Source: Saxibacter everestensis (lineage in GTDB: Bacteria; Actinomycetota; Actinomycetes; Actinomycetales; Brevibacteriaceae). Taken from it: a stretch of DNA of 64,000 nucleotides. The DNA lies in contig NZ_CP090958.1 of the NCBI RefSeq assembly GCF_025787225.1, forward strand, positions 682,001 through 746,000. The letters are read 5' to 3'. A program made the position numbers and the translations under genes. How positions within the stretch are numbered: position 1 is the stretch's first letter; every line of letters starts with the position of its first letter. Under the pieces are notes generated by a model. It was not told the DNA's origin and did not search any database. It saw nothing but the letters and a program-made list of their open reading frames with translations. Shown here piece by piece: positions 43,060 to 61,042 of the stretch.

Positions 43060-44190
43060 GTGAGCATTGAGATTGAAATTGGCCGTGGAAAGCGTGGTCG
43101 CCGCGCGTACTCTCTCGACGATATTGCTGTCGTCCCGTCGCGCCGGACCCGGGATCCGGAAGAAGTTTCGGTTTCCTGGCAGATCGACGCCTACCACTTC
43201 GACCTGCCGATCGTCGGTGCGCCGATGGACTCCGTTGTCTCACCAGCGATGGCGGTTGCGCTCGGTCGTCTCGGCGGCCTCGGCGTCCTCGACCTGGAGG
43301 GATTGTGGACTCGGTACGACGACCCGGAGCCGCTGTTGGCGGCAATCGCCGAGCTACCCCAGGCCGAAGCGACCGCGCAGATGCAGAAGCTCTACGAGGA
43401 GCCGATCCGCGCTGAACTGATCACGGCTCGCCTGGCCGAGATCCGCGACGCCGGCGTCACGGTTGCCGGCGCGCTGACGCCGCAGCGAACCCAGCAGTTC
43501 TGGAAGACCGTCGTCGATGCAGGCGTCGACATCTTCGTCATCCGTGGCACGACTGTGTCGGCGGAGCATGTGTCCGGTCACGCGGAACCACTTAACCTCA
43601 AGCGCTTCATTTACGAACTCGACGTCCCGGTAATCGTTGGCGGCGCCGCCACCTACACCGCGGCGCTGCACCTGATGCGTACCGGCGCTGCCGGGGTGCT
43701 CGTCGGTTTCGGCGGGGGAGCGGCGATGACAACCCGGACAACGCTCGGCATCCACGCGCCGATGGCCAGCGCCATCGCGGATGTCGCGGCGGCTCGACGG
43801 GATTACATGGATGAGTCCGGTGGGCGCTACGTGCATGTGATCGCCGATGGAGGGCTTGGCTACTCAGGCGACCTGGTGAAGGCGGTCGCGGTTGGCGCTG
43901 ACGCCGTCATGCTGGGAACCGCACTGGCGCGCGCCGAGGAGGCTCCCGGGGGAGGCTGGCACTGGGGTGCGGAGGCGCACCACTCGTTGTTGCCGCGCGG
44001 GTCCCGGGTGAATGTCGGCACCGTTGCGCCCTTGGAACAGATCCTGTTCGGGCCAAGCCGCCGTGCCGACGGCACGTCCAATCTGGTCGGAGCGCTGAAG
44101 CGGGCGATGGCGACTACCGGGTACTCGGACCTGAAGGAATTCCAGCGGGTCGAGGTCGTTGTGTCGCCGTACCACTCCCGTTCCGAGTAG
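43060..44190 (+). CDS. guaB3: GuaB3 family IMP dehydrogenase-related protein
   Basis: 376 residues. A TIM barrel like IMP dehydrogenase but without CBS domains: SLDDIAVVPSRRTRDPEEVS, VGAPMDSVVSPAMAVALGRL, VIVGGAATYTAALHLMRTGA, GVLVGFGGGAAMTTRTTLGI (where the GuaB catalytic-Cys loop is altered), and IADGGLGYSGDLVKAVAVGA. The standard actinobacterial GuaB3 has these features; its activity may be IMP or GMP metabolism. In mycobacteria it directly follows guaB2, whereas here about 8.3 kb of molybdenum-enzyme genes separate them. A cluster of short repeats follows the gene. Confidence 0.92.
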   Translation: MSIEIEIGRGKRGRRAYSLDDIAVVPSRRTRDPEEVSVSWQIDAYHFDLPIVGAPMDSVVSPAMAVALGRLGGLGVLDLEGLWTRYDDPEPLLAAIAELPQAEATAQMQKLYEEPIRAELITARLAEIRDAGVTVAGALTPQRTQQFWKTVVDAGVDIFVIRGTTVSAEHVSGHAEPLNLKRFIYELDVPVIVGGAATYTAALHLMRTGAAGVLVGFGGGAAMTTRTTLGIHAPMASAIADVAAARRDYMDESGGRYVHVIADGGLGYSGDLVKAVAVGADAVMLGTALARAEEAPGGGWHWGAEAHHSLLPRGSRVNVGTVAPLEQILFGPSRRADGTSNLVGALKRAMATTGYSDLKEFQRVEVVVSPYHSRSE

Positions 44191-44287
44191 TGGCCGGGTA
44201 GTAGCGGCCGGGTAGTAGCGGCCGGGTAGTCACTGCCGGCGAAACGGTCCGGTTTCGCCCCCTGCCAAGCGAAACGGTCCGGTTTCG
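44186..44287. repeat. Short tandem repeats and two GCGAAAC hairpins after guaB3
   Basis: About three 14-bp units (TAGTAGCGGCCGGG) directly follow the guaB3 stop. Then two hairpin sequences GCGAAACGGTCCGGTTTCG occur, at 44239-44257 and 44269-44287. They share the GCGAAACGGTCCG end with the 76-bp elements at 49691 and 59314. They may work as a terminator region or be remnants of that element. Confidence 0.75.
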
Positions 44288-44360
44288 TGCGTTTGGTCCG
44301 TTTAAAGGTGACGACCAGAGCAACTTTGTGGACCGTTGCGCCGAACGGAGTCCTGAGAAT

Positions 44361-45604: not shown

Positions 45605-46023
45605 GCGGATCGCCGATGGATGAGCGTCCCGATGCCGAATCGAGTTCGCCGTGGACCGCGCGCCGCTACGGCCAGGCCCGGGGCGCACTGACCTTTTATC
45701 GGATCATGGCGTATATCACCGGCACATTCCTGCTGGTGCTATGCGTTGAGATGATCCTGAAGTACGGGCTGCAGATCGACATGCAGTTCGGTTCGTTCAA
45801 CCTCGCCTCCGCCATCGCCATCGGCCACGGTTGGTGCTACGTCGTGTACCTGATCGCCGATTTCCGGCTTTGGCAGTCGATGCGCTGGCGGCTCAAGGAC
45901 TTCCTGATCATCGCCCTGGGCGGCGTGATTCCACTGTTGTCCTTCATCCTGGAGAAGCGGGTACACGCCAGGGCGAGCCGCGAACTCGACGACGCCATCG
46001 TCCTGGCTCCCCGAGACCTGTAA
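45601..46023 (+). CDS. DUF3817 integral membrane protein
   Basis: 140 residues. After a short polar N-terminus three hydrophobic segments are visible: YRIMAYITGTFLLVLCVEMI, ASAIAIGHGWCYVVYLIADF and FLIIALGGVIPLLSFILEKR. The first two are typical of DUF3817 proteins. Stop of SURF1 and start overlap as ATGA. The SURF1-DUF3817-guaA neighbourhood is common in actinobacteria. The function is unknown. Confidence 0.9.
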   Translation: MSGSPMDERPDAESSSPWTARRYGQARGALTFYRIMAYITGTFLLVLCVEMILKYGLQIDMQFGSFNLASAIAIGHGWCYVVYLIADFRLWQSMRWRLKDFLIIALGGVIPLLSFILEKRVHARASRELDDAIVLAPRDL

Positions 46024-46065
46024 AAGCGCAGCCGTCGCAAGGCGGCCCCACCCTAAAGGAAATCT

Positions 46066-47670: not shown

Positions 47671-47707
47671 AACCTCTACACCACTTTGCCCAAACATCAG
47701 GAGTGAC

Positions 47708-48340
47708 ATGAAGACCAGCACCTCGCAGGTCCGCGAAGCCAGATCGCCGGAGACAGGTCGTCGGCGCCAAGGGTGGCGTGCGGGCGACCTCGCGCTCATC
47801 GCCGTGTTCGCCGCATTGATCGCCACGATGGGAATGCTTCCGGCGATTCCGGTTGGCGGGGTCGGGGTTCCGATCACCCTGCAGTCCCTGGCCGTGATTC
47901 TCACCGGTTTGGTGCTCGGACCCGCGCGGGGCTTCGCGGCGACCGCGCTCTACGTTGTGGTCGGCCTGATCGGGATCCCGGTTTTCGCCGGCTTCACCGG
48001 AGGCATCGGGGTGTTGGCAAAGCCGTCCGCCGGCTACATTATCGCCTTCCCGCTGGTATCCGCGCTTGCCGGGCTATTGGCGCTGATAGTGGTCCGCAAG
48101 ATGAAGCGGGCGTGGCACATCCCGCTGTTGTTCGTTGCCGGTCTGCTCGCCAGCTTCACTTTCATGCACCCTTTGGGCATTGCCGGCATTATGGTCAACG
48201 CCGGACTTGACCTGCGCGCCGCTATCGCCGCCGACGCGATCTTCATCCCGGGAGATGTGATCAAGAACGTCGTCGCAGCGCTGATCGCAGGCACCGTGCA
48301 CCGCGCCTTCCCCGATTTGCTGGCCCGTCGGCGCGCGTGA
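47708..48340 (+). CDS. bioY: Biotin transporter S component BioY
   Basis: 210 residues. Six membrane segments typical of an ECF S component: DLALIAVFAALIATMGMLPA, VGVPITLQSLAVILTGLVLG, ATALYVVVGLIGIPVFAGFT, GYIIAFPLVSALAGLLALIV and others. PVGGVGVPITLQ and the Gly-rich GFTGGIGVLAKPSAGYI are BioY signatures for biotin capture. ATG 47708 has AGGAG closely upstream. It overlaps bioM by 4 bp, forming bioY-bioM-bioN, a dedicated biotin uptake system. Confidence 0.94.
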   Translation: MKTSTSQVREARSPETGRRRQGWRAGDLALIAVFAALIATMGMLPAIPVGGVGVPITLQSLAVILTGLVLGPARGFAATALYVVVGLIGIPVFAGFTGGIGVLAKPSAGYIIAFPLVSALAGLLALIVVRKMKRAWHIPLLFVAGLLASFTFMHPLGIAGIMVNAGLDLRAAIAADAIFIPGDVIKNVVAALIAGTVHRAFPDLLARRRA

Positions 48341-49059
48341 GCGTTCTCCAGCTGGACGGCGCCGCGGTCGCGGTCACCGATCTGGACGGTGACAGCAAGA
48401 CAGTGCTGGCGCCGACCTCGCTGACGCTTACCGAACGCCGGATCAGTGTGATCGGAGCGAACGGCTCGGGCAAATCCACCCTGCTACGGCTGCTGAACGG
48501 CCTCGTCATGCCGAGCGAGGGTTCGGTGACGATCGATGGCCTCGACACCCGCAAGGATGGCGCCAAGGTGCGCCGCCGGGTCGGCTTCGTTTTCACCGAT
48601 CCGGCAGCGCAGCTGGTGATGCCGACCGGGCGGGAGGACGTCGAGTTGTCATTGCGCCGCCTGGAGAAAGATCCGCGAGCCCGTAGCCGGCGAGCGATGG
48701 CAGCGCTGGAGCGATTCGGCTTGGCGGAGCTCGCCGAGCAGAGCGTCTACGAACTTTCCGGAGGCGAACGCCAGCTGCTCGCAATCGCCACGGTGCTTGC
48801 GGTCGAGCCGACAGTGCTTGTGCTCGACGAGCCGACGACACTGCTCGACCTGCGCAATCGGGAACTCGTTCGGAGCTTGCTGGCCGGCCTCGACCAGCAG
48901 ATGGTGCTGGCCACGCACGATCTCGACCTTGCTCTGGATGCGGACCGCTCGCTCGTCATCGACGACGGCAGGGTGGCCTTCGACGGCAGCCCGGCGGCCG
49001 CCGTGGCCTGGTACCGTCAGCTGGTTGCCGCCGAGATTCCGCTGGAGAGGCGAAAGTGA
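48337..49059 (+). CDS. bioM: Energy-coupling ABC ATPase BioM
   Basis: 240 residues. Walker A in ISVIGANGSGKSTLLRLLNG near residue 40, Q-loop region VGFVFTDPAAQLVMPTGRED, ABC signature VYELSGGERQLLAIATVLAV and Walker B TVLVLDEPTTLLDLRNRE, plus the switch His in MVLATHDLDLAL. It powers biotin uptake with BioN and BioY. Only one ATPase is encoded, as in other BioMNY systems. It overlaps neighbours by 4 bp on both sides. Confidence 0.94.
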   Translation: MSVLQLDGAAVAVTDLDGDSKTVLAPTSLTLTERRISVIGANGSGKSTLLRLLNGLVMPSEGSVTIDGLDTRKDGAKVRRRVGFVFTDPAAQLVMPTGREDVELSLRRLEKDPRARSRRAMAALERFGLAELAEQSVYELSGGERQLLAIATVLAVEPTVLVLDEPTTLLDLRNRELVRSLLAGLDQQMVLATHDLDLALDADRSLVIDDGRVAFDGSPAAAVAWYRQLVAAEIPLERRK

Positions 49060-49688
49060 CGCACCGGAGCGCGTTGCTGGGCAGGTATGTGCAGGGGAAC
49101 TCCTGGCTGCATCGGGCTCCGGTGTGGTCGAAGTTGCTCGGCATCGCGGTTTTCAGCCTCGTGGTGTTTCTTCACGAGGGCGTGTGGCTCAGTCTCGGCC
49201 TGCTGATACTGGCTGCCGCGGCGGGCTTGTCCTCCGGAGTCCGGAGCACGATGTTGCTGGTGCCCTTGGCGCTGCTCTGGCCGGTTCTGCTGCTGCTGTT
49301 CGGCTATCACTGGTGGTTGCAGGGCCCATTGGCGGCGGCGCAGATAGTTATCGATATCGTTTCGGTCGTTCTGACTGCCTCGCTGATCACGCTTACCACC
49401 CCGAGCCAGCGGCTGCTGGATGCGCTGGTCGCGATGGCTCGCCCGCTGCGGCCGCTCGGCGCGGACCCGGAGCGCTTCGGCCTGTCGGTGGGGTTGATGA
49501 TCCGGAGCGTTCCCCACCTAATCGGGCTGGGACATCAGGTGCGTGACTCGGCCAAGGCCCGCGGCCTCGAGCGCAACCCGCGCGCCGTCCTGCTTCCCGT
49601 CGTGGTGAATGCGGTTGCCTATGCGCAAGCCACCGGCGACGCGCTGGCTGCACGCGGACTCGGCGAGCGGGACGACGGTTCCGCTTGA
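49056..49688 (+). CDS. bioN: Energy-coupling T component BioN
   Basis: 210 residues. Membrane segments are at SKLLGIAVFSLVVFLHEGVW, LLVPLALLWPVLLLLFGYHW and IVIDIVSVVLTASLITLT. The two cytoplasmic coupling motifs Ala-Arg-Gly appear in DSAKARGLERNP and DALAARGLGER, which dock on the ATPase. It is the T component of BioMNY. The start overlaps the bioM stop (GTGA). Confidence 0.9.
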   Translation: MTHRSALLGRYVQGNSWLHRAPVWSKLLGIAVFSLVVFLHEGVWLSLGLLILAAAAGLSSGVRSTMLLVPLALLWPVLLLLFGYHWWLQGPLAAAQIVIDIVSVVLTASLITLTTPSQRLLDALVAMARPLRPLGADPERFGLSVGLMIRSVPHLIGLGHQVRDSAKARGLERNPRAVLLPVVVNAVAYAQATGDALAARGLGERDDGSA

Positions 49689-49690
49689 CC

Positions 49691-49766
49691 GGCGAAACGG
49701 TCCGGTATCAGCCCTAGCACCCCGGTCATTGCATACCACTTGGGCAAGAAAGCGGACCGTTTCGCC
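49691..49766. repeat. 76-bp hairpin-ended repeat element, copy 1
   Basis: Ends are inverted repeats GGCGAAACGGTCCG (49691-49704) and CGGACCGTTTCGCC (49753-49766), a 14-bp stem. The inner 48 bp closely match copy 2 at 59314-59389, including CACCCCGGTCATTGC. The six bases upstream (TTGACC) also match. It lies directly between bioN and the LacI gene. No ORF inside. Confidence 0.9.
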
Positions 49767-49803
49767 GTTCGGCTCGCGGGCGCCTGTCGGTAGCATTGCG
49801 TGC

Positions 49804-50868
49804 ATGGCGACTATCAAGGAAGTGGCGCGCGAGGCGGGGGTCACCCACGCCGTCGTGTCGCGCATCCTCAACGAGGACCCGACCCTGCACGTCCGTCCTG
49901 ATACCCGAGAGCGGGTGCTCGCAGCTGCAGCCCAGCTGAAGTACATCCCGAACCATGCGGCGAAGGCGCTGCGCGGCGCCCGAGCCGGCGCAATCGGGCT
50001 CGCGGTGCACGAGGTGAGCAATCCGATCTACAGCGCGATCATCGAAGGCGCGCAGCGGGCCGTGTCCGCCCACGGGTCAGTGCTGATGCTCGCCGATGCC
50101 GACGAGCTCTACCGTGACCCCGCCACGTTTAGCAGAATGATCACGAGCAAGGCGATCGACGGGCTTATCCTGCTTCCCGCCGGCACTGAGGCCGACGAGT
50201 TCGTCGCGCGCGCCGCAGCCGCCTCGCTTCCCACGGTGGTCGTGAACGAGCGCGCCGCCGGCCAACGCAGTGTCAGCGTCGACGATGCCGCGGCGGCCGG
50301 CCTGGCGGTGCAGCATCTGGTCGGGCTCGGGCACCGCGACATAGGCGTGCTCCTCCTCGATGGAGAGACCCGGCGGCGACTAGACCGGCGCGAGGGTCAT
50401 GAGACCGCACTGCGGGACGCGGGCCTCGATCTCCACGACTCGTGGGTCGGTAATGGCGGGCACACGCTCGAGAGCGGACGCGTGGGACTGTTGCGGATGG
50501 CAGACCGCGGCCCGTTGCCGACCTCGGTGGTCGTTCACAACGTCATGGCGGCTGTTGGTGTCATCCGCGCGGCGAAAGAACTCGGCCTGAGCGTGCCGCA
50601 CGAGCTGTCGGTCATCGGATTCCACGACATGAGCTTCGCCGATTTCGTGAGCCCCTCGTTGACGGTGGTGAAACTCGCCCTCGCCGAGATGGGGGTAGCG
50701 GCGGTCGAGACCCTGATGCGACTGCTCGCCGGCCAGGAGGTAGATCAGACGATCAGCGTGCTGGAGCCGGCTCCTGCCCTCGTGATCCGTGAGTCGACCG
50801 CGCCTCCGCCGCACCGTCCCGATGTCCCTGCGGAAGCTCGATCGGGCGGCGGCACAGACGCGGAGTAG
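49804..50868 (+). CDS. LacI family transcriptional regulator
   Basis: 354 residues. N-terminal helix-turn-helix MATIKEVAREAGVTHAVVSR, then ILNEDPTLHVRPDTRERVLA and the hinge NHAAKALRGARAGAIGLAV. A periplasmic-binding-like core follows, with AQRAVSAHGSVLMLADADEL, GLGHRDIGVLLLDG and ELSVIGFHDMSFADFVSPSL. ATG 49804 is chosen as the canonical family start. Likely targets are the MHS transporter and the CoA-ligase operon, whose promoters share a LacI-type palindrome (52962 and 59272). Its inducer is unknown. Confidence 0.93.
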   Translation: MATIKEVAREAGVTHAVVSRILNEDPTLHVRPDTRERVLAAAAQLKYIPNHAAKALRGARAGAIGLAVHEVSNPIYSAIIEGAQRAVSAHGSVLMLADADELYRDPATFSRMITSKAIDGLILLPAGTEADEFVARAAAASLPTVVVNERAAGQRSVSVDDAAAAGLAVQHLVGLGHRDIGVLLLDGETRRRLDRREGHETALRDAGLDLHDSWVGNGGHTLESGRVGLLRMADRGPLPTSVVVHNVMAAVGVIRAAKELGLSVPHELSVIGFHDMSFADFVSPSLTVVKLALAEMGVAAVETLMRLLAGQEVDQTISVLEPAPALVIRESTAPPPHRPDVPAEARSGGGTDAE

Positions 50869-50893
50869 CCGAATGACGTCTGGAGGCCGGCCC

Positions 50894-52312
50894 TTACCGC
50901 GGCGTGCGGCGCCCGCCGATCAGGATCACGAGGCCGCTGAGACCGAGCGGCAGTAGCGCCCAGAGTGTGGCGGTGATGTACCCCTGGCGTGTGGGGAGGA
51001 GCCCGCCGGCGGGGGTGGCGGTGGCAAGGAGTAGGCCGGCCAGGGCGCTGCCGATGCTGAATCCGATGCTGCGCACGATCTGGTTGATGGCCAGCACGCT
51101 GGCGGTCTCAGCGGGGGGCACCCCGGTCAGGACGAGCGAGGGCATTGCCGCGGAGATGCCCCCGACTCCGAGGCCGAGCACGGCCATCGCCACGAGGACC
51201 GCGATGAGTGACCCGGAGGTCGCGGCGAACAGTGTGGCGGCAAACACCGCGGCGGCGAGCATCACTGCCGCCGCCGAGACGAGGTAGGCCCAGCGGTTGG
51301 AGATACGGGCGATGAGTCCGGGGAGCGCTTTCCCGGCGACGAAGCCGAGGGCGGAAAACGGGATCAAAGCGGCTCCGGACGCCACGCCGGGGAGTCCGAA
51401 GCCGTACGGTGCACCGGAGGGTGTTTGCAGGTAGCGGGTCAGCAGGCTGAACAGCAGGTACATGCCGATTCCGGCGACGATCATCGCGAGGTTCGCCCGG
51501 AGCACGGCGGGTTGTCCGAGCAGTCGCAGGTTGACCAGCGGTACGCTCGTCCGCAACTCGACCGCCGCCCAGGCCGTGAGGAATACAACGGTGATCACCA
51601 GGATGGACGCTCCTACCCAGGGGCGGTTCCAGGTGCTGGGCTCGGCGATGACCAGGAGGGCCCCGAGCGTACCGAGGCAGAGCAGGAGAGCGCCGGGCCA
51701 GTCAATGCCAGGTCGCGGTCCGGGTGCCTCCTTCGGCAGCACCAGCCACGCGATCACGAGCGCGGCAATGGATAGCACGAGCCCAAGCCCGTAGGCGGCG
51801 CGCAGCCCGGCGAGCTGGTCGAGCAGGCCGATCACCGGATAGCCGACGCCGATTCCGACTGTGGAGACGACCGAGAGGGTCGCGATCGTGGACGCGGACT
51901 TCTCTGCCGGGAGGTGAGCGCGGGCAACGCTCATCAGCAGCGGGACTCCGCCCAGCCCGACTCCTTGCAGTCCCCGTCCGATCAGCAGAAGCGGAAACGG
52001 CAGAGGGAGCGTGGTCAGCGCTCCGCCGATCACCACGATCGCAAGGCAGACCAAGATCACCAGTCGCCGCAGTGATCCGCTGCCGAGCCTGCCCAGGAGC
52101 GGACCGGCGATGGCGCCGGAGAACAACGTCACGGTCAACGTCCACTGTGCCGCGTTTAACGAGACGTGCAGACCGGTAGCAACCGGCGTGATGAGCGGAG
52201 CGCCGAGGCTGCCGATGACTGCCACCACGAGTGCGACGCACACCAACGCGATGCTCAGCCGAGAAGCACCGGCCTCGCTAATGGCCGCATCATCGGTCGT
52301 CTTGTCGCTCAT
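50894..52312 (-). CDS. MFS efflux transporter
   Basis: 472 residues with about 14 hydrophobic segments, e.g. LSIALVCVALVVAVIGSLGA, WTLTVTLFSGAIAGPLLGRL, GVGLGGVPLLMSVARAHLPA, GLGVGGISAAMPSLVLTGVP. The layout fits drug:H+ antiporters of the 14-helix type. It overlaps the TetR gene upstream by 4 bp (ATGA), a standard arrangement for regulated multidrug or toxic-compound export. ATG 52312 is used; the frame continuing to 52549 runs into tetR and is not real. Confidence 0.88.
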   Translation of the reverse strand: MSDKTTDDAAISEAGASRLSIALVCVALVVAVIGSLGAPLITPVATGLHVSLNAAQWTLTVTLFSGAIAGPLLGRLGSGSLRRLVILVCLAIVVIGGALTTLPLPFPLLLIGRGLQGVGLGGVPLLMSVARAHLPAEKSASTIATLSVVSTVGIGVGYPVIGLLDQLAGLRAAYGLGLVLSIAALVIAWLVLPKEAPGPRPGIDWPGALLLCLGTLGALLVIAEPSTWNRPWVGASILVITVVFLTAWAAVELRTSVPLVNLRLLGQPAVLRANLAMIVAGIGMYLLFSLLTRYLQTPSGAPYGFGLPGVASGAALIPFSALGFVAGKALPGLIARISNRWAYLVSAAAVMLAAAVFAATLFAATSGSLIAVLVAMAVLGLGVGGISAAMPSLVLTGVPPAETASVLAINQIVRSIGFSIGSALAGLLLATATPAGGLLPTRQGYITATLWALLPLGLSGLVILIGGRRTPR

Positions 52313-52881
52313 CGGTTCGATTCGGTCGTGATGTGCTCGAACAACCCCGAGTCGATCCGCGTCCGCAGCCCGTCGGCCCAGGTCTCGTCGAGATCCGCTA
52401 TGTCCAGCGCGGCGCCGGCGTTCAGCAGCATCCCGAATGCGAGGAACGACTTGACCGTCACCGGTTCGAGCCCGGTTGCGTCCGCAATCACGTCCCACAT
52501 GCGGCCGAAACTGGCGCGCACCGCGTCGCGGACTTCCAAATCGCCACATGCAGCAAAGCCCTGCAACTGCAGCAGCAAGTTCGTCCGATCGGCCAGCAAC
52601 TCGTAATACTCCCGACCCAGCTCCGATAAGGCAGCCAGCCCATCCTTGCCCGACGCTGCCGTCCGCATCCCGTCGATGATGCGATCGAAAGACCCCTGCA
52701 CCAGTTCCAAGAACAGTGCCTTCTTCGTTCCGAACATGCGGAAGACGTACGCCTGGGTGATCCCCGCCGTCCGTGCAATCGCCTCAGTCGACGCACCGTG
52801 CAATCCGTGCGCGGCGAACTCCTCCGCCGCGACCGCCAGCACCTGAGCTCGCCGCTCAACACCAGTCATCCGTTTAGCCAT
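52309..52881 (-). CDS. TetR family transcriptional repressor
   Basis: 190 residues. N-terminal helix-turn-helix: RAQVLAVAAEEFAAHGLHGA, then STEAIARTAGITQAYVFRMF and GTKKALFLELVQ, the usual TetR DNA-binding pattern. The remainder is an all-helical ligand domain. It starts 10 bases from a 21-bp palindrome that is probably its operator and is followed by an overlapping MFS exporter gene. It most likely represses itself and the exporter until a toxic ligand binds. Confidence 0.93.
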   Translation of the reverse strand: MAKRMTGVERRAQVLAVAAEEFAAHGLHGASTEAIARTAGITQAYVFRMFGTKKALFLELVQGSFDRIIDGMRTAASGKDGLAALSELGREYYELLADRTNLLLQLQGFAACGDLEVRDAVRASFGRMWDVIADATGLEPVTVKSFLAFGMLLNAGAALDIADLDETWADGLRTRIDSGLFEHITTESNR

Positions 52882-52890
52882 GGGGATAGA

Positions 52891-52911
52891 TTACTAGTTA
52901 CTAACTACTAA
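52891..52911. promoter_or_regulatory. TetR operator candidate
   Basis: 21-bp palindrome with arms TTACTAGTTA and TAACTACTAA around a central C, one mismatch. It is 9 bp upstream of the tetR start codon. AT-rich, unlike its surroundings. Confidence 0.75.
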
Positions 52912-52930
52912 TCAATCCCTGCGCCTAGGG

Positions 52931-52959
52931 TTGACAGCCAATCCTCGCCGTCCTAGATT
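52931..52959 (+). promoter_or_regulatory. Sigma-70-type promoter of the MHS transporter gene
   Basis: TTGACA at 52931-52936, a 17-bp spacer, and TAGATT at 52954-52959. It points toward the transporter gene, 85 bp before its start. A LacI-type palindrome begins two bases after the -10 box. Confidence 0.7.
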
Positions 52960-52961
52960 AG

Positions 52962-52976
52962 GTAAATCGTGTTAAC
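52962..52976. promoter_or_regulatory. LacI-type operator candidate (MHS transporter promoter)
   Basis: GTAAATCGTGTTAAC, right after the -10 box, so bound protein would block transcription. It matches the reverse complement of the site at 59272-59285 (GTAAAACGTGTTAC) at 12 of 14 positions. Confidence 0.65.
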
Positions 52977-53043
52977 GCGACGCTGAGCAGGGTGTGGCCG
53001 ACCGGAATTCGGGCACCATCAACCGAGTCAAAGGAGACAGTGG

Positions 53044-54354
53044 ATGTCAGTACTGAGTACCGGCAAGGGGAAGATAATCGCTGCGGCGGCCGCCGGAAAC
53101 TTCGTCGAGTGGTACGACTTCGCAATCTACGGGTATTTCTCGCCCGTGCTGGCGAAAGTCTTCTTCCCGGAAACCACGGGTTTGGTCGGCCTCCTGGCCA
53201 CACTTGGAGTATTCGGCGCCGCCTTCGTGCTCCGGCCGGTCGGCGCCCTCGTCTTCGGGCACTTCGGCGACCGCCTCGGCCGACGCTGGGTGCTCTCCTT
53301 CGTCATCCTGGCGATGGCGGGGGCAACAACTCTGATGGGACTGCTTCCCTCCTACGAGATGATTGGCGTGTTCGCGCCGATCGCGCTCACCCTGTTGCGG
53401 CTGATCCAGGGCTTCTCGGCGGGCGGCGAGTTCGGCGGAGCGGCCTCACTACTGTTCGAGTACGCGCGGCCCGAGAAACGGGGACTGATGGGGTCGGCGC
53501 AACCGGCCAGCATCGTGGTGGCCTTGGCCGTCTCCGCCGGTCTCGGTGCCGCGCTCACCGCCGCTATGAGTGAGGAGTTCCTCTACTCGGTCGGATGGCG
53601 CATCCCGTTCCTTTTGGCGCTTCCGTTCGGTCTGATCGGCTGGTACATTCGCCGGCACATCGACGAGACTCCGGCGTTCATCGAGCTGCAGGAGAGCGGT
53701 GAGGTGGCGACGAGCCCCGTGAAGGACGTGTTCCGAGCAAACTGGCGGATGATCGTCGCCGGCACCGCCGCGATCGTGTCGTGGACCGCAGGCGGATACG
53801 TGACCCTCCAGTTCCTGCCGACCTTCTTCAACGGTGTGCTGGAACGCCCGATCACCGACGGCCTGACCGCGTCACTCGTCGGACTGTCCATCTATGCTGT
53901 GTTCATAGTTTTCGGCGGCTGGCTCGCCGACCGGGTGGCCCGCTGGAAGGTGATGATGACGGGCGCGATCGCCCTCGCGGTGTTTGCGGTGCCCTGCTAC
54001 TTGCTTCTCATCGACGGCTCGCTCGTGGGCATCGGCGTGGCTCTTGTACTTTTCGCGGCGGCGCTGGGACTCGTCGCCGGACCGACGCCGGCGCTGTTGT
54101 CCGAGCTCACGCCGGAGAAGGTCCGCACCACCTATCTCGGCATCGTTTACGCGATTGCCAACGCCGCGTTCGGCGGCTTTGCCCCCTACATCGTCATCGC
54201 GCTGATCTCCTCCACCGGCCTGTTGATCTCTCCGGCGATCTACCTCGTGGCGCTTGAGCTGATCGCGGTCGGGGGCCTCATCGGGGTCGCCGTGCATATC
54301 CGCCGTCGTGCCCGGGCGCGCGCCGTGGCTGTCGAGTCCCTCACGGAGGCGTGA
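53044..54354 (+). CDS. MHS-family MFS transporter (ProP/ShiA/KgtP type)
   Basis: 436 residues, 12 membrane helices. The metabolite:H+ symporter signature is clear: AAGNFVEWYDFAIYGYFSPV and FFP at the N-terminus, then RPVGALVFGHFGDRLGRR between helices 2 and 3 and LLRLIQGFSAGGEFGGAA. Members import carboxylic acids or betaines such as alpha-ketoglutarate, shikimate, citrate or proline betaine. Its promoter carries a LacI-type operator also found in front of the CoA-ligase operon, so it probably imports the acid used by that operon. Downstream its stop is convergent with the enoyl-CoA hydratase gene. Ligand is not predictable. Confidence 0.9.
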   Translation: MSVLSTGKGKIIAAAAAGNFVEWYDFAIYGYFSPVLAKVFFPETTGLVGLLATLGVFGAAFVLRPVGALVFGHFGDRLGRRWVLSFVILAMAGATTLMGLLPSYEMIGVFAPIALTLLRLIQGFSAGGEFGGAASLLFEYARPEKRGLMGSAQPASIVVALAVSAGLGAALTAAMSEEFLYSVGWRIPFLLALPFGLIGWYIRRHIDETPAFIELQESGEVATSPVKDVFRANWRMIVAGTAAIVSWTAGGYVTLQFLPTFFNGVLERPITDGLTASLVGLSIYAVFIVFGGWLADRVARWKVMMTGAIALAVFAVPCYLLLIDGSLVGIGVALVLFAAALGLVAGPTPALLSELTPEKVRTTYLGIVYAIANAAFGGFAPYIVIALISSTGLLISPAIYLVALELIAVGGLIGVAVHIRRRARARAVAVESLTEA

Positions 54355-54415
54355 GCTGGCTGGCCAGGTCTCAGTCGGGCCCGCTCACGGAAGCGTGAGC
54401 TGGCCCGGCCCGGTC

Positions 54416-55222
54416 TCAGTCGTCGCCGAACGCCGCAGGGCGCTTCTCGATGAAGGCCCGAATCCCCTCCTGGCCGTCCTCCGAATGGAACAACCGCGCG
54501 AGGGCCAACTGATCTGCGGTCAGGGCAGTCTCGATGTCCTGCGACCGGCCGGAGTCGATCAAATGCTTCGCGTCGCGAAGAGCGCTCCGAGGCTGCCCGG
54601 CGAGCACCGTGGCGAACTCGAGAGCCGCCTCCAAGAGCTCCTCCGGCGGGTGCACGCGCGTCACGATCCCTTTAGCCAGGGCCTCGTCGGGGTACACGGT
54701 GCGGCCCGTCATCACGAGTTCCTTGGTCCAGCGGGCGCCCACTTCGCGCACCAGACGCTGAGGACCGCCCCCGCCCGGGAACAGCCCGAGCTTGATCTCT
54801 GGCAGCCCGAGCCGGGCCGTCGTTGAGGCGAGGATGAAGTCGCAGCAGAGCGCGATCTCGAAGCCGCCGCCGAACGCGTAGCCGTTTACGGCGGCGATCG
54901 TCGCCTGGGGCAGCCGGGCGAGATCATCGAACACCGCCCGTGAGCGTCGCTGGTACTCCTCGAATTCCTCGACGGAGGCATGGGAGTACTCCTCGATGTC
55001 CGCTCCGGCGACAAATCCGCGGCCGGTGCCGGTGAGCACCACCACCCGCACCGCGGGCGTCTGGCGGATGCGGACGATCTCCGTGCCGATCGCCGCGACC
55101 AGAGAGCTGGAGAACGCTCCGAGCTTCTCCTCGCGGTCAATGCGAAGGATGCGCACGTGTCCCACGTCGCGCAGCCGGAGATTCGGGTGCACTGAGACCT
55201 CGTCGCTGGATTCGGCGATCAT
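54416..55222 (-). CDS. Enoyl-CoA hydratase/isomerase family protein
   Basis: 268 residues, crotonase fold. Oxyanion-hole segments are GFVAGADIEEYSHASVEEFE and NGYAFGGGFEIALCCDFILA, the latter with the first catalytic Glu; the second Glu lies in LGLPEIKLGLFPGGGGPQRL. These residues fit a hydratase. Start ATG 55222 has GGAG nine bases upstream and overlaps the CoA-transferase stop (ATGA). The frame that continues upstream to 56122 crosses the CoA-transferase gene and is not used. It is the last gene of the minus-strand operon and probably hydrates the unsaturated acyl-CoA made by the ligase or transferase. Confidence 0.93.
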   Translation of the reverse strand: MIAESSDEVSVHPNLRLRDVGHVRILRIDREEKLGAFSSSLVAAIGTEIVRIRQTPAVRVVVLTGTGRGFVAGADIEEYSHASVEEFEEYQRRSRAVFDDLARLPQATIAAVNGYAFGGGFEIALCCDFILASTTARLGLPEIKLGLFPGGGGPQRLVREVGARWTKELVMTGRTVYPDEALAKGIVTRVHPPEELLEAALEFATVLAGQPRSALRDAKHLIDSGRSQDIETALTADQLALARLFHSEDGQEGIRAFIEKRPAAFGDD

Positions 55223-56388
55223 CGATTTTGCTCCTTCAGTAGTTCCTCGATCTGCGACTCGGGCAGCACCTCGCGTAGGATCTCGGCGCTGTGCTCGCCG
55301 ACCCGCGGGGGAGCGTGCCGCTGGCGCCAGGGTGTCTCGCTCATCCGGATAGCGCATCCGATCAATTCGATCGGCGTTCCGCCCGGGCCGTCCACAGTGA
55401 CGATCATGTCTGAATCGTCGGCGCGTAGCTCGTCCACGGCCTCGCGCGTGGTGCGCACGCGCGCCGCCCACAGTCCACGGGACCCGAACGCGTCGAGCCA
55501 GTGCTGGATGGGACGCCTGACCAGGACGGATCCAAGTGCCCGCTTCGCCTCGTCGCGCTCGGTCCACGGATCGAACGCGGCCACAGCCGCGTCGCCCACG
55601 GCGTCGGCGATCGTCTCCAGCGGGGCCATCGCTACGGCCAACCAGCCGTCGCTGGCCTGGTAAATGCCGAACGGCGCTGACAGCCAGGCCTGGCCGATCC
55701 CTTCCGTCGAGCGTTCGTAGTCGGTCTCCTGGTTCACGAACGCCGAGATCTCCTGGCACTGCATAGCGATCGCCGTGGAGTACAGGTCGACCTCGACTCG
55801 CTGCCCGATGCCGTGGATGCTCCGTGCGACCAATGCCGCGAGGATGCCGTTGGCGAGCGTGAGAGCGGTGGCATGGTCGACAATCGCCGTTCCCGCCGGG
55901 GTCGGCGGGTCGGTTCGGCGGCCGGTTGCCGCCGCAAGCCCAGACATGGCCTGGATCAGCAGATCCTGGCCGGGGCGGTTCTCGCGTGCGAAGGTCGTGT
56001 CCTGGCCCCAGCCCGATCCCGAGCAGTAGATGATGTCGGGCTTGACCGACTTGAATTCCTCGTAGCCAAGTCCCAGCCTGGCGAGGACGCCGGGCCGGAA
56101 GTTCTCGACCACCACGTCGCAACTTGCGCCGAGGTCGAGCAGCGCCTGACGTGCGATCGGGTTCTTCAGATCGAGGGCGAGCGAGCGCTTGTTGCGGTTC
56201 ATCGCCAGATAGGCCGCGGACTCGCCATCGACGAGCTCGCCAATCATCTCAAGCGAGCGTTCCCACTCGCCCTCCGCGCGCTCCACCTTGATCACATCCG
56301 CGCCCAGATCGCCGAGCAGCTGGGTGCCGTACGGCCCCAACATCATCTGGGTGAAGTCGAGTACGCGGATTCCGTCGAGGGCCTGCAT
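55219..56388 (-). CDS. CaiB/BaiF family III CoA-transferase
   Basis: 389 residues. Opens LDGIRVLDFTQMMLGPYGTQ and LLGDLGADVIKVERAEGEWE, with NRNKRSLALDLKNPIARQAL, VVENFRPGVLARLGLGYEEF and DIIYCSGSGWGQD; the catalytic Asp is expected in GQDLLIQAMSGLAAATGRRT. These are the hallmarks of formyl-CoA transferase-like enzymes that exchange CoA between carboxylic acids. Start codon overlaps the ligase stop (TGATG). With a ligase and hydratase in the same operon it resembles carnitine-type or other carboxylate pathways, but the substrate is unknown. Confidence 0.93.
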   Translation of the reverse strand: MQALDGIRVLDFTQMMLGPYGTQLLGDLGADVIKVERAEGEWERSLEMIGELVDGESAAYLAMNRNKRSLALDLKNPIARQALLDLGASCDVVVENFRPGVLARLGLGYEEFKSVKPDIIYCSGSGWGQDTTFARENRPGQDLLIQAMSGLAAATGRRTDPPTPAGTAIVDHATALTLANGILAALVARSIHGIGQRVEVDLYSTAIAMQCQEISAFVNQETDYERSTEGIGQAWLSAPFGIYQASDGWLAVAMAPLETIADAVGDAAVAAFDPWTERDEAKRALGSVLVRRPIQHWLDAFGSRGLWAARVRTTREAVDELRADDSDMIVTVDGPGGTPIELIGCAIRMSETPWRQRHAPPRVGEHSAEILREVLPESQIEELLKEQNR

Positions 56389-58007
56389 CAGGGGTTCTCC
56401 ATTTCGTTCGTGGGGTTCTGCGGGTCGGTCGTGGACTCGGGCCGGAACGCCTCGCGCAGCGCGGCCCGGTCGACTTTGCCGAAACTGTTGCGGGGGAGCG
56501 CATCGACGACGTGCACGCCAACGGGCTTCTTGTACGACGCGATTCGCGCGAGGCAGGCCTCGCGTACGAGCCTTGCCAGTTCGTCGCGAGAGATGGGAAC
56601 CGACGCCGAGGCTTCGAGGACGGCGAAGGCGTGCACACCTTCACCCCATCGCTCGTCGGCCAGGCCAACGACCGCCACCTCGGCGATGCCGTCGATCTCC
56701 TCGATCACCTGCTCAACCTCACGCGGATGGATATTGAATCCCCCGGAGATGATGAGGTCGGAACGCCGTCCGAAGATGTGGAGGTAGCCTGCATCGTCGG
56801 TGCACCCGATGTCGCCGGTCGAGAACCAGCCGTCGTTGAGCACCGACGCGGTCAGCTCGTCGCGGCGCCAGTATCCGGGCATGACGACGGGACCGCGTAT
56901 CTTCAGCACCCCGTCGTCGTCGCGATGCTCGATCTCGGGGATCCAGCGTCCCGCCGACTGCAGCCGGGTTCGCGCCACGTCGGCCCGGTGCGGGTGCTCC
57001 GCCAGATCGCGGGCCGCACGATCATGGTCGTCAGGCGTGAGTACCGTCAGCGGCGCCAGCGCTTCGGCGAGACCGTAGAACTGGGTGAGGGCGCCAGGGA
57101 AGCATCGTGCCGCTCGCGCAAGGACATCGACCGGCGCCGGCGAGCCGCCGTAGGGGACGCTGCGCACGGTCGCGACCGACTCCTCGCGCCCTGGCAGGGC
57201 GTCGACCAGCCGGGCGAGCAGGGTGGGAACGAGCGGCAGTACGGTGCCACCGTGCCGCTCGACGGCGTCGAGCACCCGGGACGCGTCGAACGGCTCGACG
57301 ACTACGGTGCGGGCGCCTCGCATGGCGCAGTCGAGTGCCACAGACCCGCCGAAGTGGGGCATCGGGGCGCCGAGCACGACGACATCCTGGGGGCCGATCA
57401 GTGGCAGATGTGACAGGGCGTGCTCGGTCTGCGCCAACCAAGCTGAGTGGGTGACCACTACGCCCTTGGGCGCGCCGGTCGTCCCGGAGCTGTACATCAG
57501 CATCGCGATGTCGCCGGGCCCCGAATACACCCGGGTTTCGCCGCCGGCCGTGGCGCCGTAGAAACGAGTGAGGATTGCGTCATCGTTGCCAAGGTCGAGC
57601 ACCGGAACTACCGATCCCCGCTCGTTCAGCGCATCCCGCACGCCACGCTCGCGTGAGCCTGCGACGCACACGATGGCCGCCTGTGCGTCGTCGACGATCG
57701 CCGCGACCTCGCGCGGGTGCAGTCGCGACGACAGTGCCACGCGTACGAACCCGAACCCGAGCAGGGCATGGTCGACGAGGCGCGCCAATACACTGTTTTC
57801 GAGATAGACGACGACGCGGTCGCCGGGCGCAGCACCCGAGTCGAGTAGCTCGCGGGCCATGCCGGCGGCCAGCCCCGCTACCTCGTCGAAGCTCAGCCAG
57901 CGTTCACCCCACCGCAGGGCGTGCTCGGCGGCGTGGCTGGCGTAGACCCGGTCGAGGAGCTCCGAGACGGTTCGCACCTCGTTGCGCGGGTTAGTGCGAT
58001 GCGACAT
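56388..58007 (-). CDS. AMP-forming acyl-CoA ligase
   Basis: 539 residues, ANL superfamily. ATP site in AMLMYSSGTTGAPKGVVVTH; then LTQFYGLAEALAPLTVLTPD in the core; GWFSTGDIGCTDDAGYLHIF and GRRSDLIISGGFNIHPREVE of the hinge; the catalytic Lys in LPRNSFGKVDRAALRE near the C-terminus. It activates a carboxylic acid to acyl-AMP and then acyl-CoA. A 17-bp overlap joins it to the solute-binding-like gene upstream, and a 3-bp overlap to the CoA-transferase downstream, so the four genes are one operon. Substrate range cannot be read. Confidence 0.93.
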   Translation of the reverse strand: MSHRTNPRNEVRTVSELLDRVYASHAAEHALRWGERWLSFDEVAGLAAGMARELLDSGAAPGDRVVVYLENSVLARLVDHALLGFGFVRVALSSRLHPREVAAIVDDAQAAIVCVAGSRERGVRDALNERGSVVPVLDLGNDDAILTRFYGATAGGETRVYSGPGDIAMLMYSSGTTGAPKGVVVTHSAWLAQTEHALSHLPLIGPQDVVVLGAPMPHFGGSVALDCAMRGARTVVVEPFDASRVLDAVERHGGTVLPLVPTLLARLVDALPGREESVATVRSVPYGGSPAPVDVLARAARCFPGALTQFYGLAEALAPLTVLTPDDHDRAARDLAEHPHRADVARTRLQSAGRWIPEIEHRDDDGVLKIRGPVVMPGYWRRDELTASVLNDGWFSTGDIGCTDDAGYLHIFGRRSDLIISGGFNIHPREVEQVIEEIDGIAEVAVVGLADERWGEGVHAFAVLEASASVPISRDELARLVREACLARIASYKKPVGVHVVDALPRNSFGKVDRAALREAFRPESTTDPQNPTNEMENP

Positions 58008-59157
58008 CCGCCCACATCCGGTTCAGGGTCGACACGATGTGCTGTGCCGATCGGCCCTGTTCGAACAGGTCGTGAAGCGCGTGGGCTGCCGCCCGCTGGT
58101 AGGCGGGATACCCGGCGCGGCGCGGTCGCAGAAACGACAGCTCCATCGTCGAGGCTGTGTTGCGGTAGAGGCCACCCGCCCGCTCGTTTACAGCGCCGTC
58201 CAGCCATGCGGCCGTGCTGGCTGGCTGCCCTCCGGCCTCGGCGTAGATGCCGCGCTGGACGTGTTCCGAGGTCGCGAACAGAATGAAGTCCGCCGCCTCG
58301 TTCCGGCAGGCCGATCGCCCTGAGACGGCTAGGCCGACCCCTCCGGTCAGCGTTCCGGTGGGCTGCTCCCCAACGGCCGGGGCAGCGTGGAACGACACGG
58401 CGCCCCGGCCGTCGCGTCGCAGCGAGTACGTCGAGTACATGAAGACCAGTGGCGTGTAGACCCCCGGCCCGTCGCCGGCGAGCTCGTCCAGCACGGCGAC
58501 CGGGTCGAGATGCAAGGATCGCGTGGCCGAGGCGATGACGATCTCGCGCATGAGCTCGAGCGCGGGCACGGCAACCTCATCGCAGATCCCGCCGGTTCGC
58601 CACCAGCTCGGACCGGTCGCAAGATCCGGGACGGTGCCCGCGTTGTGGGCCTCGCAGAGCGAGAGGAACGTGCCCCAGAGGTGCGTCGGATTCGCGGCGA
58701 TCACCGTGCGATCTTTTCCGAGTTCGCGGATGAAAGGCACCACATCATCCCAGCGTTCCGGAAGTCCCGCGGCGGGAGCGTCGTCGAGGCGAACGGCGGC
58801 CACCATGCACGCCGCGTCAACGGGCAGGGCCCACAATTCGCCCTCCCGCTCGTAACTTGCGTAGCTGCGGCCGATGTAGGCGTCGGCGCGGGAGCGGAGT
58901 TTTTCGGCGCCCAAGAGGGCGGAAAGCGAGGTGAGTGCGCCACTCGCCGCGGCGTCTCCGACGAACGGGTGATCGATCGCCAATACGTCGAATCCGGATG
59001 CGAGGTCGTCGAGCGGAACGTCCTCGAATTCGTGCAGCGGACGCGCGGTCCACTCGAACGTCGTCCCGGGATTCAGCGCCGAGTAGGCCGAGCTTGCGGC
59101 ATGAATGGAATCGACGGCCCTCGGATGATCCCAAGTGAGACCCCGAATGAGGCTCAT
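57991..59157 (-). CDS. Solute-binding-protein-like protein without signal peptide
   Basis: 388 residues. The fold and motifs look like ABC transporter family 1 substrate-binding proteins: SIHAASSAYSALNPGTTFEW, VLAIDHPFVGDAAASGALTS, GELWALPVDAACMVAAVRLD, GLPERWDDVVPFIRELG and AGGQPASTAAWLDGAVNER near the end. It starts MSLIRGLTWDHPRAVDSI and has no signal peptide or lipobox, so it is predicted to stay in the cytoplasm. No ABC permease or ATPase is nearby. It is translationally coupled to the acyl-CoA ligase. It may sense or buffer the substrate of the pathway. I recall similar signal-less proteins near CaiB genes but cannot cite them. Confidence 0.78.
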   Translation of the reverse strand: MSLIRGLTWDHPRAVDSIHAASSAYSALNPGTTFEWTARPLHEFEDVPLDDLASGFDVLAIDHPFVGDAAASGALTSLSALLGAEKLRSRADAYIGRSYASYEREGELWALPVDAACMVAAVRLDDAPAAGLPERWDDVVPFIRELGKDRTVIAANPTHLWGTFLSLCEAHNAGTVPDLATGPSWWRTGGICDEVAVPALELMREIVIASATRSLHLDPVAVLDELAGDGPGVYTPLVFMYSTYSLRRDGRGAVSFHAAPAVGEQPTGTLTGGVGLAVSGRSACRNEAADFILFATSEHVQRGIYAEAGGQPASTAAWLDGAVNERAGGLYRNTASTMELSFLRPRRAGYPAYQRAAAHALHDLFEQGRSAQHIVSTLNRMWADVASH

Positions 59158-59271
59158 GCTGTTTCGACTCCGGTCGTCGGCCGCGTAAGTCGGACCTCTC
59201 CCGTCATGATGCACTCCTCGTCTGCGCTGTACTTCCGATGCTCGCCCCGCGTTCTGGCGGGACAATTCACC

Positions 59272-59285
59272 GTAACACGTTTTAC
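59272..59285. promoter_or_regulatory. LacI-type operator candidate (CoA-ligase operon promoter)
   Basis: GTAACACGTTTTAC, a near-perfect palindrome with central CG, 115 bp upstream of the solute-binding-like gene. Its reverse complement nearly equals the site at 52962-52976 in the MHS promoter. Confidence 0.65.
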
Positions 59286-59313
59286 TAGCTTGGCCGGGGT
59301 CGGCGGCTTGACC

Positions 59314-59389
59314 GGCGAAACGGTCCGGTATCTGCCCTGACACCCCGGTCATTGCCTACCCCCTGGGCAAGAAAGCGGACCGTTTCGCG
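59314..59389. repeat. 76-bp hairpin-ended repeat element, copy 2
   Basis: Same element as 49691-49766: left end GGCGAAACGGTCCG, right end CGGACCGTTTCGC at 59376-59388 (the last base differs). It lies just downstream of the 3' end of ramB and upstream of the CoA-ligase operon promoter. Inner differences are seven single-base changes. Confidence 0.9.
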
Positions 59390-59399
59390 GGTCGGCCCG

Positions 59400-60890
59400 C
59401 TACGGCGCGTGCTTTTCCAGGAATGAGTACACCTCGGTCGAGTCGACACCGGGGAAGCTGCCGGGCGGCAGTGCAGCCAGCAGGCTCGCGTGTGTCCGGG
59501 CCGAGGGCCAGGAGTGATCCGCCCACCGGTCGGCGAGGTGCTCGGGAGGTTTCCGGCAGCAGGAGGCATCTGGGCATCGTGATACCGAGCGCTCGGTGGT
59601 CTCCCTGCCGCGGAACCACTTGACCTGTGAGAACGGCACGCCGACACTGACCGAGAATTCGCCGTCCTCCCCGCTCAGCACCTTGGAAGTACACCAATAA
59701 GTGCCGGCTCCTGTGTCGGTGTACTGGTAGTAGGGGCTGAACCGATCGGCGATGTCGAAAACAACCCGCGCCGTCCAGTGCCGGCATACGTGCTGACCCT
59801 CGATGGCCCCGAGTGCGTCGGTTGGAAAGTTCACTCCGTCGTTTTCGTAGGCCTTGTGGATCGAACCGCTCTCATGCACCTTCATGAAGTGCACATTGAT
59901 GCCGAGGTGGCGGGTGGCGAGGTTCGTGAACCGATGAGCCGCCGTCTCATAGGAAACACCGAAGTGGTCGCGCAGGTCCTCGATCGAAAGCTGCCTGGCC
60001 TCCTTGGCGTTCTTCAGCGCGTGAACGGCGCTGCCTTCCGGCAGCAGAAGCGCCGCGGTGAGGTAGTTGGTTTCAACTCGCTGCCGGAGGAATTCACCGT
60101 AGTTGGCGGGCGCGCTGTGCTGCAGAATGTGGCTCGCCAGCGCCTGCAGCAGGGCTGCCCGGGGGTCGTGGCTGGCACGACTATCCTGCGGCAGGTAGAT
60201 CCGGCCGTTCTTAGTGTCGGTGACCGAACGCGTCGAATGGGGCAGGTCGTGCACGTAGTGCAGCGAGAAGCCGAGGTGCGAAGCCATGTCTCCGGCGACT
60301 CGCTGGGTGAGCGGACCGCCGGAGTGTCCGACCGCGGTCAGTAGTTCGGCGGCGTGCTCCTCCAGCTCCGGGAAGTAGTTGTCCTGGGCCCGCATCGTCT
60401 CGCGCAGCTCGGCGTTCGCCCGTCGTGCCTCTTCCGGTGTCGCCGCCTTCTGGGTGAGCAGGCGCTCGATCTCTCGTTGCAGCCCGACGATGGTCTGCAA
60501 CGCATCGGCCGGAAGTGACTTGCCCACCCGGACCTGCGGAAGTCCGAGCGCCGCAAACAGCGGTCCGCGCTGGGCCCGCTCCAGCTCGATCTCCATCGCC
60601 GCCCGCTCATCGGCCGGTGCCGGGTCAAGCAGCTCGGGTACGGTGACCGACAGCGCCGCGGCAAGCGTGCGGAGCATCGCGAGGCTCGGCTCGCGCTTTC
60701 CGTTCTCCATCATCGAAATTTGCGATGGCGCCCGACCGATGGCATCGCCAAGCGACTCCAGGGTCAGCTTTCGGAGCGTGCGCAGATGCCGGATTCTTCG
60801 TCCGATCGTCAGTGCGTCGGTGACCTGTTCGCCGGCAGACTCGACGCCGTCCGGTGTTTCAGGCGCTGTTTGGTGCTGAATAGTTGGCAT
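59400..60890 (-). CDS. ramB: RamB-type short-chain fatty acyl regulator (XRE HTH + DUF955/DUF2083)
   Basis: 496 residues. N-terminal helix-turn-helix: [40 protein letters not shown]. The middle has an IrrE/ImmA-like (DUF955) domain: [14 protein letters not shown] and [20 protein letters not shown], and [20 protein letters not shown]. The C-terminal domain carries a Cys/His set ([40 protein letters not shown]). This layout is that of RamB, which in Corynebacterium controls the glyoxylate shunt and acetate genes. Divergent position to aceA, 152 bp apart, fits. ATG 60890 is chosen; the longer frame to 61022 is unsupported. Confidence 0.92.
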
Positions 60891-60914
60891 GCCTAAGGCT
60901 CGCACGCAGACAAT

Positions 60915-60929
60915 TTCTACGCAATAGAA
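60915..60929. promoter_or_regulatory. Inverted repeat in ramB-aceA intergenic region
   Basis: TTCTACGCAATAGAA: five-base arms TTCTA/TAGAA around CGCAA. The gap of 152 bp between the divergent ramB and aceA starts must hold both promoters and RamB sites; this is the clearest palindrome there. It does not clearly match the RamB consensus I recall. Confidence 0.4.
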
Positions 60930-61042
60930 GAATCGTGAAATTTCTGTCGAGAAAGCCGGGCAAGAAGGGTTGTTCTTCCGAAAGACTGGGGTCACGCCAG
61001 CAAAACGTGCCGGTGAAGGCACGAAGTACTAACGGAGGAAAC

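Follow-up and report, generated by a model that had tools for sequence, protein, structure and literature searches.

A REPIN-like family of fold-back repeats, probably mobile and non-autonomous, in the genome of Saxibacter everestensis

Introduction

REPINs are doublets of repetitive extragenic palindromic (REP) sequences that form hairpins, with units of 71 and 110 bp as described by Bertels and Rainey (2011; PMC3116915), and they are tied to RAYT transposases in the same account. REPs of the GTAG/CGTC type are described as frequently coming in pairs separated by 20-100 bp, and those of the CGTC kind apparently do without a dedicated transposase (PMC3733652). Our literature search returned nothing on the motifs reported below or on actinobacterial REPs, nor anything that brought RAYT, Actinobacteria and REP sequences together, and the word actinobacteria is absent from the available part of the REP survey PMC3733652. 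Here we describe a palindromic repeat of 74-76 bp in the actinobacterium Saxibacter everestensis, found in a stretch of 64,000 nucleotides (the window, C1:682001-746000 of the 4.05-Mb single-contig genome, G000), where two copies flank a 9.5-kb catabolic module, and which we read as probably a REPIN-like, non-autonomous mobile family.

The repeat resembles REPINs, as PMC3116915 describes them, in having short conserved arms in inverted order at a near-fixed distance, mostly giving elements of 73-74 bp, and a less-conserved spacer that nevertheless pairs (modestly in S. everestensis, strongly in the family of G059, the nearest relative compared), as well as in the presence of single arms and its extragenic position. 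It is unlike REPINs in that its own genome has no RAYT/Y1 gene, in the lack of a GTAG/CGTC tag, in its small number of about 40 copies, in tandem extra arms at 30-32 bp and in arms that are not clearly palindromic themselves. Since neither the RAYT nor the GTAG/CGTC tag was found, we do not class the family as a REPIN, although its pattern of dispersal is REPIN-like. It shares palindromic, often paired repeats with the GTAG/CGTC REPs of the published survey, but its arm ends without the tag and it forms one palindrome of 57-74 bp rather than repeats of 20-40 bp. Miniature inverted-repeat transposable elements (MITEs) are likewise short and dispersed with inverted ends; unlike them, the repeat showed no target duplication and no parent insertion sequence was found for it.

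Results

The first-pass annotation of the window had suggested a MITE-like or REP-like family, and further copies do exist. The core arm CGAAACGGTCC has 62 exact matches in the genome, its reversed control has 3, and within the window GCGAAACGGTCCG occurs 10 times with at most two mismatches, 6 of them exact (shuffle mean, 4.6; none of 100 shuffles reached 10), so that a chance repeat is ruled out. The 62 exact arms group into 39 clusters and include 18 inward pairs, with a spacing of 61 in 13 pairs, 60 in 3, 59 in one and 48 in one; single exact arms are also present beside the pairs. A covariance model (R1) was built from an alignment of 22 element sequences, which omitted 741315 (a near twin of 731692), 77218, 201211, 1399957, 2799619, 3567043 and the copies that R1 found later, and in which the ends of rows 104885, 2656572, 3312256 and others were trimmed by hand. 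The model gave 80 strand-matches in the genome at E<=1 and 39 separate loci at E<=0.01, 22 of which were training sequences while 17 had not been used in building it. Our working set of 40 elements consists of the 39 loci and 202578 (E 0.4), added for its exact arm, and excludes 3235239 (E 0.1) and 848359 (E 0.9); 36 of the 40 are 73-74 bp long. A second palindromic repeat family of the same genome, with arm TCGTGGGTTTGTC, was seen at C1:2005943, 3201625 and 2818335 in the 0.59 Mb searched for it.

The interiors of several copies are nearly identical, namely those of the trio 731692, 741315 and 3559170 and of the pairs 3140072/3143567, 2859500/2861302 and 2799619/3650742. Neighbouring elements are less than 10 kb apart in 11 cases against a mean of 3.7 expected (P=0.0003), and such neighbours have an interior similarity of 21.7 against 11.9, a difference matched in 0 of 3000 label permutations; both statistics describe related copies and not independent events. 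When 158 neighbouring open reading frames (ORFs) were compared by blastp, eight weak pairs emerged (26-38% identity), and not one of them links the neighbours of near-duplicate copies; one of the eight reflects a helix-turn-helix (HTH) domain common to genes beside two window copies, B and C, that are not near-duplicates. Gene duplication as the origin of the near-duplicates is ruled out by these non-paralogous neighbours, and near-duplicate elements between non-paralogous flanks mean that the element itself was copied, often locally. The guaB3 gene of G059 is 91% identical to its homologue in S. everestensis, and the sequence behind it is 127 nt shorter and has neither arm nor element, with a downstream flank that still aligns. 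This region is an empty site, too diverged for exact borders, and with it the earlier suggestion of a MITE-like or REP-like family stands.

The arm has a consensus of about 21 bp, GCGAAACGGTCC[GA][CG]T[TA]T[CG]T[CG][GC], in which GCGAAACGGTCC is followed by a strength-class pattern; positions 5-12, together with position 2, are the best conserved. The interiors diverge strongly among copies yet keep pairing, with 81.8% of cells paired (shuffles, 76.1%; no more than 46.5% after sliding by 1-3 columns), and two-sided compensated cells number 45 where 24.9 (standard deviation, 4.0) are expected, a count that none of 500 shuffles reached. The 217 minority letters at arm positions 14-21 comprise 158 C<->G or A<->T exchanges, 46 transitions and 13 other changes, whereas the 609 found elsewhere divide into 217 complementary changes, 232 transitions and 160 others; these counts, too, come from related copies and not from independent events. 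Positions 14-21 thus appear to keep base-pair strength rather than identity, which would fit duplex DNA that is read via its shape or minor groove. Additional arms that match at 10 or more of 12 positions lie at 20, 22, 30, 31, 31, 31, 32, 39, 45 and 87 bp, against 0 in the opposite-orientation control; at the looser level of 9 of 12 there are 16 against 9.

The elements are extragenic and sit mostly behind genes. By the calls of a simple ORF/GC3 script, which are rough, 34 of 40 have a gene 3' end within 125 bp and 6 overlap called ORFs, some of these being weak or over-long calls. Convergent genes flank 21 of the 40, where 19.5% would be expected from the intergenic bases of sampled stretches (9587 of 49183; binomial P=3.3e-6), with 731692 set as tandem after inspection of the ORFs and with the convergent calls at 2075900 and 2799619 depending on ORFs of about 200 nt; only 2 of the 40 are in divergent positions (P=0.006). 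The family adjoins many different kinds of genes, and no bias of element orientation relative to the replication strand was evident by eye. As for long hairpins in general (best-arm score >=12), gaps of 20-200 bp contained one in 22% of cases between convergent genes (n=46), in 10% between tandem genes (n=112) and in 2% between divergent genes (n=44); three of the convergent hairpins are copies of the 74-bp family. The first-pass annotation had offered a structured RNA or terminator as an alternative; covariation and gene-end position are compatible with this, whereas a canonical terminator is not, as the nine terminator-like sites with a U-tract called at window positions 44000-60000 include none at the three window copies. 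As a separate observation, the 1.17-Mb stretch C1:1400224-2567258 holds 1 of the 40 elements (simulation P=0.001 for 40 points and 0.018 with clusters collapsed) and includes a sign change of the GC skew between 1.62 and 1.80 Mb; this gap was spotted post hoc and may reflect gene content.

G059, which belongs to a sister genus, carries a repeat family that is built alike but is more uniform and has its own arm sequence. This family was found independently of R1, as long palindromes with arm CCGAGTGGTGGCGAATGGCTGC in 200 kb of sequence. With at most two mismatches, CGAGTGGYGGCGAANGG has 295 matches in G059 (control, 11) and 8 in S. everestensis (control, 15). In 50 stretches of G059, 40 chosen around arm matches and 10 at fixed intervals, all 46 palindromes with a middle of 27-31 nt measure 57 bp, with few arm variants and a highly variable 3-nt loop; a shorter one at 3071968, with an inward spacing of 39 instead of 43, stands outside the 46. 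Changes in the arms occur on both arms 55 times and on one arm 38 times, and the 38 mismatches between arms compare with a mean of 130 (minimum, 101) in 2000 shuffles. Of the same-orientation extra arms, 54 are spaced by exactly 31 bp, three by 41 bp and one each by 24, 32, 42, 62 and 63 bp, where 10-bp spacings (self-overlap of the loose pattern) and two 79-bp ones (inside an IS110 element) were not counted as arms. The spacers of these extra arms comprise 49 distinct 15-nt sequences with a weak C-rich pattern (identity 0.54 against 0.36 from composition). Placement repeats what we see in S. everestensis: 39 of the 46 palindromes have a gene 3' end no more than 125 bp away, 20 are convergent (P=0.002) and 6 overlap called ORFs.

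The genus of the window organism is represented by one species in our comparison set. Across 59 other genomes of the bacterial family, GCGAARYGGTCC has 0-16 matches per genome against 50 in S. everestensis, and it exceeds the reversed control in several (16 against 2 in G023, 12 against 1 in G034, 12 against 3 in G001), so that the arm pattern is much rarer in them and not zero. R1 matched in 8 other genomes of the bacterial family, with two weak additional places in G003. The eight loci inspected (L065-L072) we reject as family copies, since they are either long hairpins with a different sequence or stretches that the g2 genomes have in common; the exception is L067 of G003, with GCGAAATGGTCC arms, one of them in tandem at 32 bp, which is possibly a remote relation. 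G160, from another genus of the order, has six R1-matching loci of 68 bp each, and five further genomes among 297 have one R1 place each at E<=1e-5 (strict filters, 16 candidates scored per genome); as these were found via R1, their resemblance to its ends is partly a matter of selection. When ccsB was tried as a marker of an orthologous convergent site, its partner gene was not found within the 1.5-kb flanks of the loci of 29 relatives (tblastn E<=1e-3). Long hairpins stand behind ccsB in g2 genomes (L139, L142, L143 and L149), with stems that vary between species and, by eye, with seemingly matching changes on both sides in L142 and L149. A wider pattern scan of contigs, which may not cover the window's own genome, returned four stretches (two of Prevotella lacticifex, the end of a Streptomyces contig and a Solirubrobacteraceae metagenome-assembled genome), whose middles are, by eye, unlike the family; the GCGAAACGGTCCATTTC inverted repeats of P. 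lacticifex (L060:3225-3285 and L062:1703-1763) look similar and are apparently unrelated.

No transposase was found among 30 element neighbours scanned with NCBIfam, or within the 25 listed of 101 Pfam families matched by 72 neighbours, and the transposase with matching ends that the first-pass annotation envisaged did not turn up. Exact arms outside the 61-bp pairs form 2 inward combinations within 3 kb, each including arms of counted elements. Membership in several known classes was rejected. The own genome lacks the Y1 domain (PF01797) of a RAYT-driven REPIN system, and a known RNA is rejected for want of any Rfam match at the elements at the gathering threshold (14 sources), where the lone match was a glycine riboswitch elsewhere; this riboswitch (RF00504, 61 bits) lies near an element pair, at L050:312-413. 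Integron attC sites have RYYYAAC/GTTRRRY boxes, which the arm GCGAAAC/GTTTCGC does not resemble by eye, and the copies are scattered and not in cassette arrays. DNA uptake sequences occur in Neisseria terminators; 62 copies in 4 Mb are far too few for such a sequence, and the interiors are homologous.

The window itself contains three copies. Copy A (49691..49766; model match at 49692-49765, best on the minus strand) has exact arms at 49692-49704 and 49753-49765, and copy B (59314..59389; 59315-59388, also best on the minus strand) at 59315-59327 and 59376-59388; they are the elements 731692 and 741315 in genome coordinates. They had been noted as about 90% alike including their interiors, and are indeed 91% identical across 95 nt (49683-49777 against 59306-59400), while the 14-bp inverted ends ascribed to both are 14 bp long in A and 13 bp in B. 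As single-stranded DNA, copy A folds at -23.6 kcal/mol (z -6.9) and copy B at -24.5 kcal/mol (z -6.3), with 0 of 200 shuffles as good. The short hairpins reported after guaB3 (44239-44287) do contain the repeat, but they are really an extra arm at 44239..44251 on the plus strand and a whole, degenerate copy C at 44268..44342 (model match 44269-44341, 39.6 bits), whose left arm at 44269-44281 is exact and whose right arm at 44329-44341, GCGCAACGGTCCA, has two mismatches. The extra arm has the same orientation and lies 30 bp upstream of copy C, a tandem half-repeat arrangement, and the fold of copy C is weaker (z -2.8; 2 of 200 shuffles as good). The next copy, just beyond the window at 746021-746094 of the genome, is a near-perfect palindrome (-61.8 kcal/mol).

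All of these repeats had been placed just downstream of genes, and they are. The guaB3 homologue (43060..44190, plus strand; named in the first-pass annotation, with an IMPDH-type domain among the Pfam matches of the neighbours) ends 48 nt before the extra arm; an ORF without a Pfam match at 1e-10 (49056..49688, plus strand) ends 2 nt before copy A; and copy B ends 10 nt from the 3' end of an HTH-domain ORF (59400..61022, minus strand). Downstream of copy A, and as context only, lies a LacI-family regulator (49804..50868, plus strand), and the rest of the module (50894..59313) comprises two MFS transporters, an enoyl-CoA hydratase, a CoA-transferase of family III, an AMP-binding enzyme and an ORF without a Pfam match, whose longest reading (57991-59352) overlaps copy B, so that its true start is probably further in. 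The proposal that the element helped to insert this module found no support: copies A and B share one orientation, the family adjoins genes of many kinds and no transposase with matching ends was found. Since copies separated by less than 10 kb resemble each other unusually closely elsewhere too, the flanking of the module by A and B is expected from local copying anyway.

The repeats of G059 are themselves hosts to insertion sequences. One with a 404-aa rve-type transposase (Pfam assignment made on two of the three copies) sits in the palindrome loop at three loci (L210, L213 and L228) with 15-bp duplications, and is presumably IS481-like. At two loci (L209:1555-2927 and L243:1481-2853) a truncated arm is bordered by an element of the IS110 family, whose non-coding part includes CCACCACTCGG, the sequence of the arm itself, as would be expected for a target guide of the bridge-RNA type described for IS110 (PMC11208160). 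Insertion sequences that target REPs have been described (PMC1525189, PMC8450116), and the G059 insertions are alike in this respect, with a different host repeat.

Discussion

Our results favour, with a probability of roughly 0.6, the reading of the 74-76 bp repeat as a REPIN-like non-autonomous fold-back mobile family, so far found only in this genome. New copies would have arisen in the past by copying of the element alone, often to a site a few kilobases away, and would have survived mainly behind gene 3' ends. Movement would depend on a trans-acting transposase other than a Y1/RAYT protein encoded by the own genome. The spacing of extra arms at 31 bp, about three turns of the helix, and the strength-class pattern suggest that a protein recognises the arms in duplex form. 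Behind genes the elements would be either tolerated or put to use as hairpins that act at mRNA 3' ends; such a function is likely for some copies.

Several findings weigh against this reading. Mobility is deduced from near-duplicates, which gene conversion or template switching could also produce, and a functional hairpin would likewise sit at gene ends and covary. A search of the own genome for the Y1 transposase (PF01797) found none at E<=0.01 (the controls were positive in 6 of 14), and no autonomous relative with the same ends was noticed in the arm and neighbour scans. Inspection by eye of the sequences flanking the 40 copies showed neither a target-site duplication nor a fixed tetranucleotide of the GTAG/CGTC kind. 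Two of the five measures by which we assessed covariation are weak, with 11 pairs showing two-sided change against 9.0 (reached by 56 of 500 shuffles) and 31 further pair types against 26.9 (reached by 15 of 500). RNAalifold alone gives 14 pairs, 10 at the outer end and 4 further in, and a covariation term of -0.05. When the register is held fixed, 59% of the interior pairs, compared with 53% across copies (19 of 23 copies used).

A wider and more tentative proposal, to which we give a chance of rather less than one in three, is that this actinobacterial order harbours an undescribed class of fold-back repeats with genus-specific arms, a duplex-reading protein that measures about 31 bp, a mobiliser that is neither Y1 nor RAYT, and a second arm that is re-made from the first. 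Such re-making would produce changes on both arms at once, as they occur in G059.

The strongest of the competing explanations, which we nevertheless find unlikely, is that the repeats are bidirectional 3'-end hairpins, terminators or mRNA stabilisers, kept by selection and spread by gene conversion or duplication and not by transposition. The gene-end bias in both S. everestensis and G059 argues for it, as do the covariation, the general excess of long hairpins at convergent junctions of the genome and the hairpins of other sequence behind ccsB in several g2 genomes. Such hairpins, however, would hardly need arms as strongly conserved as these or tandem extra arms at 30-32 bp; there is no U-tract and no terminator call at the three window copies, only some 3-4% of convergent junctions would bear an element, and the 295 arm matches of G059, with few variants, amount to the dispersal of one sequence. 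It is more doubtful still, in our view improbable, that the arms are bound by a DNA-binding protein with a chromosome-organising or regulatory role. The duplex-type constraint at positions 14-21 (158/217 against 217/609, in related copies), the extra arms at 30-32 and 20-22 bp and the near absence of elements from the 1.17-Mb stretch that contains the GC-skew terminus are all in its favour, but a binding site has no need of a long palindrome with a covarying interior, the 59 other genomes of the bacterial family contain far fewer copies of the motif, near copies are related across the whole interior, and the terminus gap is the post hoc observation that may follow gene content. An ordinary MITE, derived by internal deletion from a DDE insertion sequence with GCGAAACGGTCC ends, would account for the dispersed copies and the terminal inverted repeats of 13-14 bp, and is very improbable given the lack of visible target duplications in the flanks of the 40 copies, of longer-spaced inward exact arms within 3 kb other than the two that involve counted elements, and of a transposase in the 30 neighbours scanned with NCBIfam or among the 25 listed Pfam families.

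In conclusion, we regard the repeat of S. everestensis as probably a REPIN-like mobile family, and a REPIN-like population in an actinobacterium without a Y1 transposase raises the question of what copies it. With its 295 arm matches and its changes on both arms, G059 would be a good place to catch such copying, and it could separate selection from hairpin-templated correction as the keeper of perfect palindromes.

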